A DNA stretch of 64,000 nucleotides from a virus, in IMG/VR virus record IMGVR_UViG_3300023179_000056, positions 27,886-91,885 of that record. One strand, written 5' to 3'. Below the pieces are notes generated by a model. It was given only the letters and a program-made list of their open reading frames with translations. It ran no database searches and was not told the origin of the DNA. The position numbers and the translations under genes were made by a program. Each line of letters opens with the position of its first letter. The stretch's first letter is position 1. Shown piece after piece: positions 3,443 through 58,550 of the stretch.

Positions 3443-5155
3443 ATGGCTGATAATCTACAACCAACACCGAGATACACTGGCAAACCAGGAGAAAGCATTT
3501 TGGCCAATGCTGCTGCTGGACTTGCACCAGCCAAAGCTGACGCTGCACCAAAATCTGGCGCCACCGAAACAGGTACTGGACTAATTGCAGCACTCAATGC
3601 CTATTGGGCAGGAATAGCCAACTCAAAAGGGCTAATACCTGATATTTACGAAATCAAATTTGTTGATCCTTTGTTGAGCAATGCCAGCGTGATTCCACCA
3701 GGGCCATTGGATAAAAGTTTTGCTGGCGGATCTTTACAGGTAACTGCTGCTGATGAGCTACTGCCTGAAAAACAAAACATGAGTCCGGCTGTGAGACAAC
3801 GATCTGCTACAGCCGGACAACAGATTCTACAATTCATTGACACAGTATTGCGTAACAGCAATTACATCACAGATCAGCAAAAAGTAATTTGGAATTCAAA
3901 AACCAACACATGGGATTACAACGGAAAACCTGCACAAAACTTTGCGTGGTTCAATATCTCTTGTCAAGCCGAACAGTTACAGTATGATCCCAAGCAGAAT
4001 GATTTTGCATATAGGATAACTTATATTATTGCACCGTACCAAATTCCTGTTCAAAGTGAATACTTTGACAACAGTTCTTTCAGAGGTGTACACAAAGTTT
4101 ACAATTACTGGTTCACAGGGCAAAATTCTCAAGTCACACACTTTGAACAAAATTACAACAATGCCTGGACACAGTCATTGACTAGTGATGTATCTGTCAG
4201 AGCAGGCAATGACTCCAACGCCAGTCGAGTAAACAGCAGAGAGCAATGGAAAAAAAGATACATGCCGGCTAGTAATCAAGCTAGGCAAGGCAGCGACGGC
4301 AACACATTTGAACCCGGTGCCAATGCTGCTGATTATCTTTACTCTGTTGATACTGCTACTATTGCATTAAACATACTAGGAGATCCTGCATGGATTCCGT
4401 CACCAACCAATGTACAGCCAGGACAATTTAGCACGTCACCTTTTTTTCCTGATGGCAGCATTAACACCACAGCAAGTGCAGCGTATTTTGAGTTTGCCTG
4501 GAACCGGCCCACTGATTACAATACAACCACTGGACTTATGGATCCAGGGCAAAACAACTTTGGTTCCAGTTACAGTAATTATGTTGTAAAAAGAGCCAAT
4601 GACAAAGCAGGTGTTGCTCAACAAGCTGTTTCGTATCTGGCAACTGGTGTAAAAAGTAAATTTCGTGGTGGTAAATTCACTCAAGAACTAACCGGAACAT
4701 GGTTGCAAACCCCTGCTAAAAATGCTGTAGCTGCTGCCGACACTGGTAGAAAAACTGATCCAGTTACTGGAACAACACCAGTAGGCAGCATTAACAATGC
4801 ACAAGATCCCGAACGAGGTGGCACTGGTGTTAAATCTCTGGGATTACAAGCTGGTGCATCAGTGTATAACATTAATAATTTTCAAAATCTTGCTACATCA
4901 GTGGTAAACATCAACTCTTCATCCACTCCAAATTCAATTGCGTCAGTTAATACTGCTGAACTCAGACCAGCTGAGCCACCCACTCAAAACCCAGCTCTGA
5001 CCCCTAATCCTGCTGTGGCAGCGCCGCCGGTATTGCCAAAAAACGGGTTAGGTAGCGGAGCTTATGACTCAGAATTTACCAACTTCAGTGATACAGCAGT
5101 ATCATCTACACCAACACAAGGCATTGTAAATGATGATCAAGGTAAACCAAGATAA
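3443..5155 (+). CDS. Putative baseplate hub/tail structural protein B
   Basis: 570 residues. An ordered central region (about 55-280: IPDIYEIKFVDPLL, FAWFNISCQAEQLQYDPKQN, YNYWFTGQNSQVTHFEQNYN) is flanked by Asn/Ala/Pro-rich tails. It lies directly upstream of the gp5-like spike, the usual place of the gp27 hub. No catalytic motif is visible. Hub membership is an inference from synteny. Confidence 0.5.
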   Translation: MADNLQPTPRYTGKPGESILANAAAGLAPAKADAAPKSGATETGTGLIAALNAYWAGIANSKGLIPDIYEIKFVDPLLSNASVIPPGPLDKSFAGGSLQVTAADELLPEKQNMSPAVRQRSATAGQQILQFIDTVLRNSNYITDQQKVIWNSKTNTWDYNGKPAQNFAWFNISCQAEQLQYDPKQNDFAYRITYIIAPYQIPVQSEYFDNSSFRGVHKVYNYWFTGQNSQVTHFEQNYNNAWTQSLTSDVSVRAGNDSNASRVNSREQWKKRYMPASNQARQGSDGNTFEPGANAADYLYSVDTATIALNILGDPAWIPSPTNVQPGQFSTSPFFPDGSINTTASAAYFEFAWNRPTDYNTTTGLMDPGQNNFGSSYSNYVVKRANDKAGVAQQAVSYLATGVKSKFRGGKFTQELTGTWLQTPAKNAVAAADTGRKTDPVTGTTPVGSINNAQDPERGGTGVKSLGLQAGASVYNINNFQNLATSVVNINSSSTPNSIASVNTAELRPAEPPTQNPALTPNPAVAAPPVLPKNGLGSGAYDSEFTNFSDTAVSSTPTQGIVNDDQGKPR

Positions 5156-52571: not shown

Positions 52572-53141
52572 TCAACTGTACTCGTACGGGGTATCTGGAT
52601 CATTATAGTTGACTTTGATATCACCTTTACTCTTGTCATATTCTTGGTAATAGACTTCGTTGGGTTGTAAGATTCTAAAACCATCATATTTCAATAAAGC
52701 AAATGTTACCTCTGCTTTATCAAGCATATCACAGATAATAAACGAACTGGCACAAGCACCTCTGATGTTTTTGAAGGAACTATGTTTGAATTCTTTATTC
52801 CGGAGTGCATTGTGCATATTACTGTTGGGGCTAAACATGATTCGTGTGATACCTAACTTTTGGTTACGCAAACGAATTTTATCAAAAACAGTGAGTTCAG
52901 TTAAGGTTGCTTCGTTATCGTCATTGATCTGTAATAAACAGTTTTTGACTTTGATGCTGCCTTTTGTAGATACATTGTCGGGCGTTTCCTTAGTTGACCA
53001 AGGTAGCCGGCAGTCTACATGATTGACGTATAACGTCTCCCCATGAAATTTTAAGACCCACATTGGGATGGTCTCGTCTTCCAAGTGCTTTTTGTTAAAG
53101 TGGAAAACACAATCTTTACAAGCATATTCAATCTACAACAT
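52572..53141 (-). CDS. Protein of unknown function with an amber codon at position 3
   Basis: ATG at 53139-53141 follows a strong AAAGGAAAATAAA site. Codons are ATG TTG TAG, then an open frame to 52572: IEYACKDCVFHFNKKHLEDE, TIPMWVLKFHGETLYVNHVD and so on, 189 codons in all counting TAG. The first residues after TAG contain CxxC...H (Cys-Lys-Asp-Cys), so the coding part starts right after it. An alternative TTG start at 53084 or ATG at 53063 would lose this zinc-like motif and lack a good ribosome site. The adjacent upstream tRNA has anticodon CTA. Confidence 0.65.
53133..53135 (-). promoter_or_regulatory. In-frame TAG, third codon of the 52572-53141 gene
   Basis: Amber codon between ATG TTG and the rest of the frame. 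Reading it needs suppression, for which tRNA(CUA) at 53163-53239 is the natural candidate. Confidence 0.6.
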
Positions 53142-53162
53142 TTTATTTTCCTTTAAGTTAAA

Positions 53163-53239
53163 TGGTGCGCTAGACAGGAATCGAACCTGCTACAATCTGG
53201 GTTAGAATCAGCTGCCCTTACCTTACGGGCTACTAGCGC
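53163..53239 (-). tRNA. tRNA, anticodon CTA by position (putative amber suppressor)
   Basis: Acceptor GCGCTAG/CTAGCGC, A73 and encoded CCA; D-stem GCCC/GGGC; T-arm GCAGG-TTCGATT-CCTGT; five-base variable loop. This fixes loop 32-38 as TTCTAAC with T33, anticodon CTA, A37. The anticodon stem GCTGA/CCAGA has mismatches at 27-43 and 31-39. Reading the loop one base earlier (TCT, Arg) would destroy the stem. A normal tRNA-Arg(TCT) exists at 57079. Confidence 0.7.
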
Positions 53240-53247
53240 ATGAGTGT

Positions 53248-53276
53248 AGTATATATGTTTTGCTTGATCAAGTCAA
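53248..53276 (-). promoter_or_regulatory. Sigma70 promoter TTGACT-N17-TATACT of the suppressor tRNA operon
   Basis: -35 at 53271-53276, -10 at 53248-53253. Transcription should start about 53241, essentially at the tRNA 5' end (53239), and run into the amber-containing gene. The -35 follows directly on the T-run of the tmRNA terminator. Confidence 0.85.
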
Positions 53277-53301
53277 GAAAAAAGGCAACCGAAGTTGCCT
53301 T
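53275..53301 (-). terminator. Terminator of the tmRNA
   Basis: AAGGCAAC-TTCG-GTTGCCTT on the minus strand (53282-53301) with a T-run. Same UUCG-loop style as the terminator at 51764. Confidence 0.88.
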
Positions 53302-53585
53302 TAGTGTTATTTTTGGTTACAAGGTATAACTACCTCGCTATTAGGCGTTTGCTGCCAATAGGAATTGTGAATCGTTTGCGATTACTTTTTGTGCTTCTTC
53401 GGCCGAGTTCCCTCAATCCTAACGGCTTCTACATTGCCGGACTGTCTGGTCAAATACTAATTACCCAATCGATCACCATGTCCGCCCCACTAAAAAACTC
53501 TTTTTCAAAAAAAAATCTTTTGGTGGAGCGGGGGGTTTCGAAACCCCGTCTTGAATACTTTTCTTTTTCCTTCATACAATCATAA
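53302..53585 (-). ncRNA. ssrA: Permuted (two-piece) tmRNA
   Basis: On the minus strand the acceptor piece comes first: about 53585 to 53521, ending in T-arm GGGGT-TTCGAA-ACCCC, CCGCTCC, ACCA. A 32-nt A/T-rich spacer follows, then the coding piece starts at 53488 with GGGGCGG, which pairs with CCGCTCC including the G3-U70 pair typical of alanine charging. GGTGATCGATTGGG resembles the tmRNA D-loop region. The tag frame starts GTAATC-GCA (resume codon 53379-53377) and encodes ANDSQFLLAANA, then TAA TAG. A terminator follows. tmRNA rescues stalled ribosomes and tags the nascent peptide. Circular permutation is known in alphaproteobacteria, some cyanobacteria and some betaproteobacteria. Confidence 0.88.
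53538..53581 (-). repeat. tmRNA acceptor-piece sequence, functional copy (A)
   Basis: Shares TTCATACA, the GTCTTGAAT core and the TCGAA T-loop with copy B at 54435-54480 beyond the GIY-YIG gene. This copy continues to the CCA end. Confidence 0.75.
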
Positions 53586-53662
53586 ATAGTAGAGTAAGGT
53601 GTTAGCGGTAACTAACACCAACCCCGGGGTTACTCGGGACTGTCCTCTACTGTATTTATAAG
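53583..53662. repeat. Long inverted repeat with nested hairpins upstream of the GIY-YIG gene
   Basis: Outer arms ATAAATA-GTAGAG and CTCTACTGTATTTAT close around hairpins GGTGTTAG/CTAACACC and AACCCCGGGGTT. The right arm on the minus strand contains TATAAATA, a possible late promoter for the tmRNA; the left arm contains ATAAATA on the plus strand. Confidence 0.6.
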
Positions 53663-57604: not shown

Positions 57605-57937
57605 TGGAGTGCTGAGAATACACACTTACCCAACAACACCTCGGACATTATTGTACACCTTGCGAGCATACTTTCTTCCGACTTCCACCAAGTTCTATTT
57701 CTAGATATCCTGGTCTGTTGTCAACATCGCCGTTTAGAGACAGGCAGTAGTCTTGTCGCCATATGCTATTCTACGCTTTCTATCCCGTTGACCTTGCGAG
57801 CCATTCAAGTGCGCTAACACCTTACGAAACTTCCTGCATAAACAAACCTCACCTTGCGAGCTTGGGTTGACTGGATTACCTTGCGGCTCCAGTATTAGAT
57901 GCTTTTCACATATGACCGAGTCAGTCTTTGCATTTTA
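57605..57937. other. Non-coding spacer with short ACCTTGCGAGC repeats
   Basis: No convincing gene. The 11-mer ACCTTGCGAGC occurs at 57657-57667, 57791-57801 and 57851-57861, with a variant at 57878-57888. Possibly a processed RNA region. Confidence 0.5.
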
Positions 57938-58007
57938 ATCGTTAGTAGGACTTGAACCCACAGTCGACTCCTTAACAGGGAGTTAGCTTACATTAGCTTA
58001 TAACAAC
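57938..58007 (-). tRNA. tRNA-Asn(GTT), no encoded CCA
   Basis: Anticodon arm ACTCC-CTGTTAA-GGAGT; acceptor GTTGTTA/TAACGAT. No CCA follows, unlike most neighbours. Flanked by CTGAGTCAG (58023-58031) and CTGACTCGG on the minus strand, which can pair around it. Confidence 0.8.
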
Positions 58008-58550
58008 CTACTGCGATGTGCTGACTCAGTTGCTTCATATTCTTTTGGAATACAAAATACAACACACCACGTTCCTTTTGTCTTGCGGACTACTCAGACG
58101 TCTTTCACGATCGGCGTCGGGGTCTCGGCTTTCGCATACCCGCCACTAACCATTAAAACTGCATACAAGCCCTTGGGTGCAACCCCTTGGACAAATACAC
58201 TACCCTTTCTCATACTAACTAACTGGACTGGTTTAGTTGTGAAGTCAGCACCACCTGTTACTTTCCATCTACTCCGGTTACCCTTGCGGGCCGGTAAGCA
58301 AACGTTCTTTCCACAACATCCAGCGTCATTGTTACAACCACCGGTCTTATCAGTGATCGGATCCTCACGGACCTGAGCAGGCTTGTCTAAACGAACCATT
58401 GCTGGCGGAGTTATGTAGGCATACCTCCTTTGGCTGTGTCACCACAGTTATTCTTCATAAACCAGCAAGCTGGCCTATAGGATGTTAAACCACCCTTGAA
58501 TTTCATTGTAACATCAACTGCTGAACTAGTCAACTATCAATGTTACCAAA
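58008..58550. other. Mostly non-coding stretch between tRNAs
   Basis: No tRNA recognised. Contains one doubtful minus-strand frame (58094-58399) and a CCCTTGCGGGCCGG related to the short repeats to the left. Confidence 0.4.
58094..58399 (-). CDS. Doubtful 101-residue frame
   Basis: MVRLDKPAQVREDPITDKTG..., with GGCNNDAGCCGKNVC in the middle and a plausible KPVQLVSMRKGSVFVQG end. No ribosome-binding site and unusual composition. May be a real small gene or chance. Confidence 0.3.
   Translation of the reverse strand: MVRLDKPAQVREDPITDKTGGCNNDAGCCGKNVCLPARKGNRSRWKVTGGADFTTKPVQLVSMRKGSVFVQGVAPKGLYAVLMVSGGYAKAETPTPIVKDV

Follow-up and report, generated by a model that had tools for sequence, protein, structure and literature searches.

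A stop codon placed a few codons past the start, together with a phage tRNA that reads this very stop, recurs on a small set of genes in jumbo phages. The identity of the stop, its position, the matching tRNA, the parallel change in stop and anticodon, and the relocation of the stop to genes of the peptidyl-tRNA hydrolase Pth2 are shown here. In the absence of proteomic or reporter data, we consider it very likely that this arrangement serves as a dedicated gate, worked by a suppressor tRNA, on a module for translation rescue. Under this reading, a stop 1–9 codons (rarely up to 12) past the start would end translation after a di- to oligopeptide unless it is read by a phage-encoded tRNA of matching anticodon, which would yield the full-length protein. 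The module would consist of Pth2, an HD-domain protein or an IEYACKD-family protein, often with a permuted tmRNA near. That the full-length protein is made by suppression is inferred from the conservation of the coding sequence right after the stop and the presence of the matching tRNA, without protein data, and that its dose follows suppression is likewise an inference.

The putative gated locus of the window

The window, that is, the whole stretch of 64,000 nucleotides that was analysed, belongs to an IMG/VR virus fragment of 91,885 bases with 24 tRNA genes. On its minus strand, a permuted tmRNA, a promoter, a tRNA with the anticodon CTA, AAAGGA, ATG TTG TAG, 186 sense codons and TGA follow one another (Table 1), the ribosome-binding site (RBS) with ATG TTG TAG sitting 21 nt 3′ of the tRNA. 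An earlier note, made from the sequence alone, had claimed a consensus promoter ahead of the tRNA, the anticodon CTA, and an RBS about 20 nt after the CCA leading into ATG TTG TAG and a 186-codon frame. These claims held, the promoter on direct reading and the anticodon in an ARAGORN run, which gives CTA and not TCT. The permuted tmRNA that immediately precedes the promoter goes beyond that note; it is a recurrent neighbour of the gate, found in relatives (L005, L016, L038 and L039) and also in the phages RHph_I1_18 and XacN1.

Table 1. Features of the gated locus and of its surroundings, in positions of the window
Feature	Positions	Strand	Basis and remarks
Permuted tmRNA	53278–53632	−	Rfam RF01850 / RF04321; directly upstream of promoter
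Sigma-70-like promoter, TTGACT-17-TATACT	53248–53276	−	Read directly from sequence; function inferred; precedes tRNA
Promoter boxes	TTGACT 53276–53271, 17-nt spacer, TATACT 53253–53248	−	Direct reading
tRNA, anticodon CTA (amber suppressor)	53163–53239	−	ARAGORN; Rfam RF00005, 50.4 bits; start at 53239, encoded CCA ending at 53163, discriminator A
RBS AAAGGA and ATG start	53139–53155	−	Sequence; ATG at 53141–53139; same layout in homologues
Gate, in-frame TAG at codon 3	53133–53135	−	Sequence; kept in 59/59 homologues
Gated protein, 186 codons after TAG	52572–53132	−	Stop TGA at 52572–52574; no Pfam match
GOLLD RNA	57609–58070		RF02032, 203 bits; inside tRNA array; overlaps tRNA-Asn at 57936–58008

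The anticodon stem that presents CTA has a three-pair core (CTG/CAG) flanked on both sides by a mismatch, and on this reading by hand we regard it as weak but conventional. The anticodon TCT was rejected, as ARAGORN does not call it and the stem would break. ARAGORN labels the gene tRNA-Pyl only because of its CTA anticodon; the tRNA has a canonical cloverleaf, a standard D arm and a 5-nt variable loop (by hand), matches RF00005, and does not meet the hallmarks of tRNA-Pyl, a small D loop and a short variable loop. Isotype guesses by tRNA similarity were inconsistent (Lys 30, Arg 12 and Leu 10 of 97), and we therefore claim no inserted amino acid. Loose tRNA patterns also match tRNA-Arg(TCT) and needed confirmation by ARAGORN to serve as proof.

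In viral contigs, 59 first-round homologues of the window protein were detected, with 47–77% identity. All 59 carry an in-frame TAG directly before the conserved IEYACKD segment, 1–9 codons lie between ATG and TAG (ATGAAATAG, ATGTCATAG, ATGACACAATAG, ATGACCGATTTAAACCCTATCGCTATCTAG), and the gate stop is never TAA, TGA or a sense codon; wider scans extended the set to about 100 distinct loci with TAG. The alignment of homologues proposed in the earlier note as a check thus found the TAG kept, and also the stretch that links it to the conserved core. A tRNA-CTA lies within 5 kb in 46/59 loci, on the same strand in 46/46 and upstream of the gene in 42/46. In the Rhizobium phage RHph_I1_18, where the gate reads ATG AGT GAG TTC ATG TAG AAC GAA TCG, the CTA tRNA follows 11 nt after the gated gene, which is unannotated.

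Apparent endonuclease-like ORFs in two contigs (L181 at 2304 and L060 at 4311) open with a duplicate of the 5′ portion of the gated gene, ATGxxxTAG IEY included, which is possibly a hitchhiking gate. A freshwater-2 RNA motif (RF02980) was seen at 3584–3666 in a relative's locus (L034).

The family to which the window protein belongs is marked by the motifs IEYACKD and FHFNKKHL...PMWVLK...WSTKETPD. The window protein has no Pfam match, hence no PF01981, and a Pth2 profile search of the window record, a fragment, gave no match. Searches with the protein returned nothing convincing in PHROG, no relative in PDB sequences and no relative in genome contigs. Its AlphaFold model (pLDDT 80, pTM 0.57) found no PDB match by fold search, and in BFVD the only clear fold match was an uncharacterized relative, 55% identical. 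The frame had been said to begin with a CxxC motif; this is not a family feature, and the idea of a zinc finger was rejected, since most homologues have Val in place of the second Cys. As far as the searches made can show, the window protein is without known family or fold, and no function is assigned to it.

Stop choice, relocation of the gate and the matching tRNA

When all three stops were searched by a single rule in the IEYACKD, Pth2 and HD families, 137 distinct TAG gates, one TGA gate and no TAA gate emerged from 1811 TAG, 2199 TGA and 2198 TAA candidates. In an earlier search with an RBS requirement, the TAG cluster numbered 104, and the clusters for TAA and TGA had at most 2 members. 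The base after the gate TAG is A in 127/137; an A following TAG favours suppression. The 137 gates come from related sequences and are not independent events, and the strongest independent evidence lies in the relocation of the gate to other genes and in a TGA gate paired with a TCA tRNA. Gate scans of single genomes yield several chance matches for every stop, and therefore only conserved gates were counted.

It could be argued that ATG-n-TAG forms a small ORF of its own ahead of the gene, translation of the protein beginning anew at the stop or beyond it. Several gated genes are annotated from internal starts, AUU can rarely initiate, and the lambda bar minigenes (ATG-ATA-stop) are known (PMC8012679). 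However, any stop would serve re-initiation, yet the count is 137 to 1 to 0; moreover, the codon following the stop varies (ATT, ATC, AAT, GTT, ACT and AAC), and the stop tracks the tRNA anticodon. We regard re-initiation as highly improbable.

The earlier note had also held that TAG is a normal stop and that there is no whole-genome recoding, which was borne out. TAG terminates 9/57 ORFs of ≥120 aa in the window record and 3.5–12% of long ORFs in five TAG-gated isolates (overall about 3–16% of genes), and in the genomes tested the extensions beyond terminal TAG resemble those beyond TAA or TGA. Because TAG still serves as an ordinary terminal stop, whole-genome recoding is excluded for the genomes tested. 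The 735-kb LR756501 (L371), which carries two CTA tRNAs side by side and a gated Pth2 that contains a further internal TAG, may be a TAG-recoded genome.

The gate is not specific to one protein, a result that the earlier note did not contain: the module is built around Pth2 and recurs in many described jumbo phages. Some relatives of the IEYACKD domain lack the TAG; they open on an ordinary Met or form part of a fusion with a different domain. Where the domain gene has no TAG, a nearby upstream Pth2 gene is usually gated, as found in 12/12 contigs counted (L190, L196, L197, L199, L200, L204, L207, L208, L211, L180, L209 and L213). In L200, where the Pth2 gate reads ATG ACT TAG, the stop codon of Pth2 and the beginning of the domain gene overlap, and a single gate at the start of the operon could therefore govern both by coupling, which is an inference. 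L187 has gates on both the domain gene and Pth2, and in the Sinorhizobium phage Phosso Pth2 is gated (ATG AAG TAT TAG) and its annotated start lies downstream of the true one. The gated proteins of L200, Phosso, Atu_ph07, L370 and XacN1 score above the curated cut-off of PF01981, and those of L180 and RAS14 just below it. L223 has the domain without a gate, and no CTA tRNA was found in this contig fragment, which is consistent with the gate reading within the limits of a fragment. Just after the domain gene, L200 and L197 each show a tiny gate-like frame (ATG ATG TAG ATT GCA... and ATG ACA TAG ATT AGA...).

A further proposal would be that a non-standard residue, required by the protein, is inserted at the stop, as with pyrrolysine or selenocysteine. 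The dedicated tRNA and the conserved position speak for it, as does a second conserved TAG inside the neighbouring HD ORF (ELDTG-TAG-GDP) of six RaK2-like phages (Kaldavass, XbC2, CBB, GAP32, BF and pEa49; L434–L438 and L442). However, the stop moves between unrelated genes and stays outside conserved folds, the TAG-less family members L180 and L223 start with a plain Met, and the HD-internal site is Val in Arash and ME3, so we give this proposal very little weight. The HD gene with the internal TAG has been deposited as split ORFs, and this second TAG means that suppressed stops in the module genes are not limited to one.

In named jumbo phages, the gated gene is Pth2, Pth2-HD or HD-Pth2. A whole-genome scan (RBS, ATG, up to 12 codons, TAG, open frame) detected a gated, Pfam-supported fusion of HD and Pth2 in XacN1 (243735) and the Stenotrophomonas phage RAS14. 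Gated homologues were found in ME3, Kaldavass, XbC2, CBB, GAP32, BF, pEa_SNUABM_49 (pEa49), Arash, CM1 and the uncultured LR756511, with a CTA tRNA in each; gate and CTA tRNA also occur together in the isolates RHph_I1_18, Phosso, XacN1, RAS14 and pT24. The last of these, a Tenacibaculum phage, has a CTA tRNA and an HD gene that at first appeared ungated, and the predicted gate was then found as ATG AAA TAG at 194083, on a fused Pth2-HD upstream of the annotated start. RAS14 (OP752703.1) has an ochre tRNA with the anticodon TTA (c302428–302502) besides its CTA tRNA, and no TAA gate was found on these families.

The Pth2 gate of the Agrobacterium phage Atu_ph07 uses TGA instead (ATG ATT GGC GAA CAC TTT TGA ATT AAT), and among the 30 tRNAs that ARAGORN finds in this genome (490,380 bases) there is one TCA and no CTA; stop and anticodon thus change jointly. 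In RaK2 and Hallingskeid Pth2 is ungated, and their whole genomes contain no CTA, TCA or TTA tRNA. Considering the isolates alone, 15 are gated with a matching tRNA and 2 are ungated without one (p ~ 0.007), although the genomes compared are related and not independent. In the gated uncultured phage LR745206, neither a pattern search of the entire record nor an ARAGORN run covering 395 of its 635 kb turned up a CTA tRNA, and none was found in the available sequence of the contig fragments L003, L057 and L060. The earlier claim that the gene is coupled to the phage suppressor is strongly supported by the conserved TAG, the linked CTA tRNA and the TGA/TCA pair of Atu_ph07. Its stricter form, that the protein is made only when the suppressor is charged, remains an inference without protein data.

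The early stop might alternatively be a sensor, in which UAG would report low RF1 activity (and UGA low RF2 activity) in the manner of prfB, the tRNA only raising the ceiling of read-through. The start-proximal stop in a context favourable to suppression and the RF-1-domain protein beside the module in L200 agree with this. However, a matching tRNA is present in every gated isolate genome checked, and in Atu_ph07 the anticodon has changed with the stop, whereas release-factor sensing alone needs no TCA tRNA. We consider such a sensor unlikely. The RF-1-domain protein itself is short, carries GGQ (PF00472, E 9e-24), and lies at L200 281–682, with the gated Pth2 operon following about 2 kb downstream.

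Proposed functions of the gate

Pth clears peptidyl-tRNA that has fallen off ribosomes, and short start-stop frames provoke drop-off, as in lambda bar (PMC8012679). In a feed-forward view, the suppressor tRNA would cause readthrough past normal stops and hence stalled or dropped peptidyl-tRNA, and the gate would yield the peptidyl-tRNA-clearing enzyme in proportion to suppression, so that supply matches need. This logic is an inference without direct evidence, and we hold it only tentatively, on roughly equal terms with a timing switch. The bolder reading, a widespread feed-forward device in which rescue capacity scales with suppression and stop and anticodon coevolve, also has, in our judgement, slightly more against it than for it. 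The nearby tmRNA and the RF-1-domain protein of L200 may fit such a rescue kit. Pth2 was not found in the window genome, a fragment, or in RHph_I1_18, and the Pth2 logic therefore leaves the domain-only phages not directly explained.

The timing switch rivals the feed-forward step and not the gate itself: the suppressor tRNA would arrive at a fixed point in the infection and the gate would hold the module back until then, without any feedback from peptidyl-tRNA. Gate and tRNA share a strand, the tRNA being usually upstream and often close, and the late genes of recoded phages are believed to be timed in this way (PMC10879173). However, timing leaves unexplained why peptidyl-tRNA hydrolase modules, and not lysis or structural genes, are gated repeatedly; we judge it less likely than not.

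The suppressor-tRNA gate, under either function, bears on the suppressor tRNAs previously reported without a target. CUA suppressor tRNAs were described in XacN1, where extending 18 TAG-ended ORFs revealed no target (PMC5852040), a UCA suppressor was described in Atu_ph07 without a target (PMC6102473), and the target of an orphan suppressor tRNA in RsoM2USA was unidentified (PMC8504454). The HD-Pth2 of XacN1 (243735) and the Pth2 of Atu_ph07 are new candidate targets, their suppression being inferred. We suggest that for the lone suppressor tRNAs of large phages the gate is probably a main purpose. The gate provides a specific conserved target for such tRNAs of non-recoded jumbo phages in at least 15 described isolates, some of them with hosts that are easy to grow, ties suppression to peptidyl-tRNA hydrolase and tmRNA, and predicts annotation errors at the gate, where genes would be cut short, divided or overlooked. 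Nature would here provide a gene switch operated by a dedicated nonsense-suppressor tRNA without recoding of the genome.

Comparison with known systems

In phages with a recoded stop (code 15, in which UAG encodes Gln; crAss-like phages among others), a phage suppressor tRNA likewise reads UAG in phage genes. However, the gated genomes keep TAG as a normal stop and use the codon as a single start-proximal gate, and no recoding is seen in them beyond one or two module genes. The frameshift of prfB (RF2) likewise depends on an early in-frame stop at which the balance between decoding and termination regulates a translation-termination gene, whereas the gate involves no frameshift, the frame being continuous through the TAG in the family, and a dedicated matching tRNA would decode it. 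The lambda bar minigenes are likewise two-codon ATG-x-stop frames tied to peptidyl-tRNA drop-off and Pth, but in the gated phages the gene of the hydrolase, or of its partner, itself begins with the mini-frame, which is apparently meant for readthrough.
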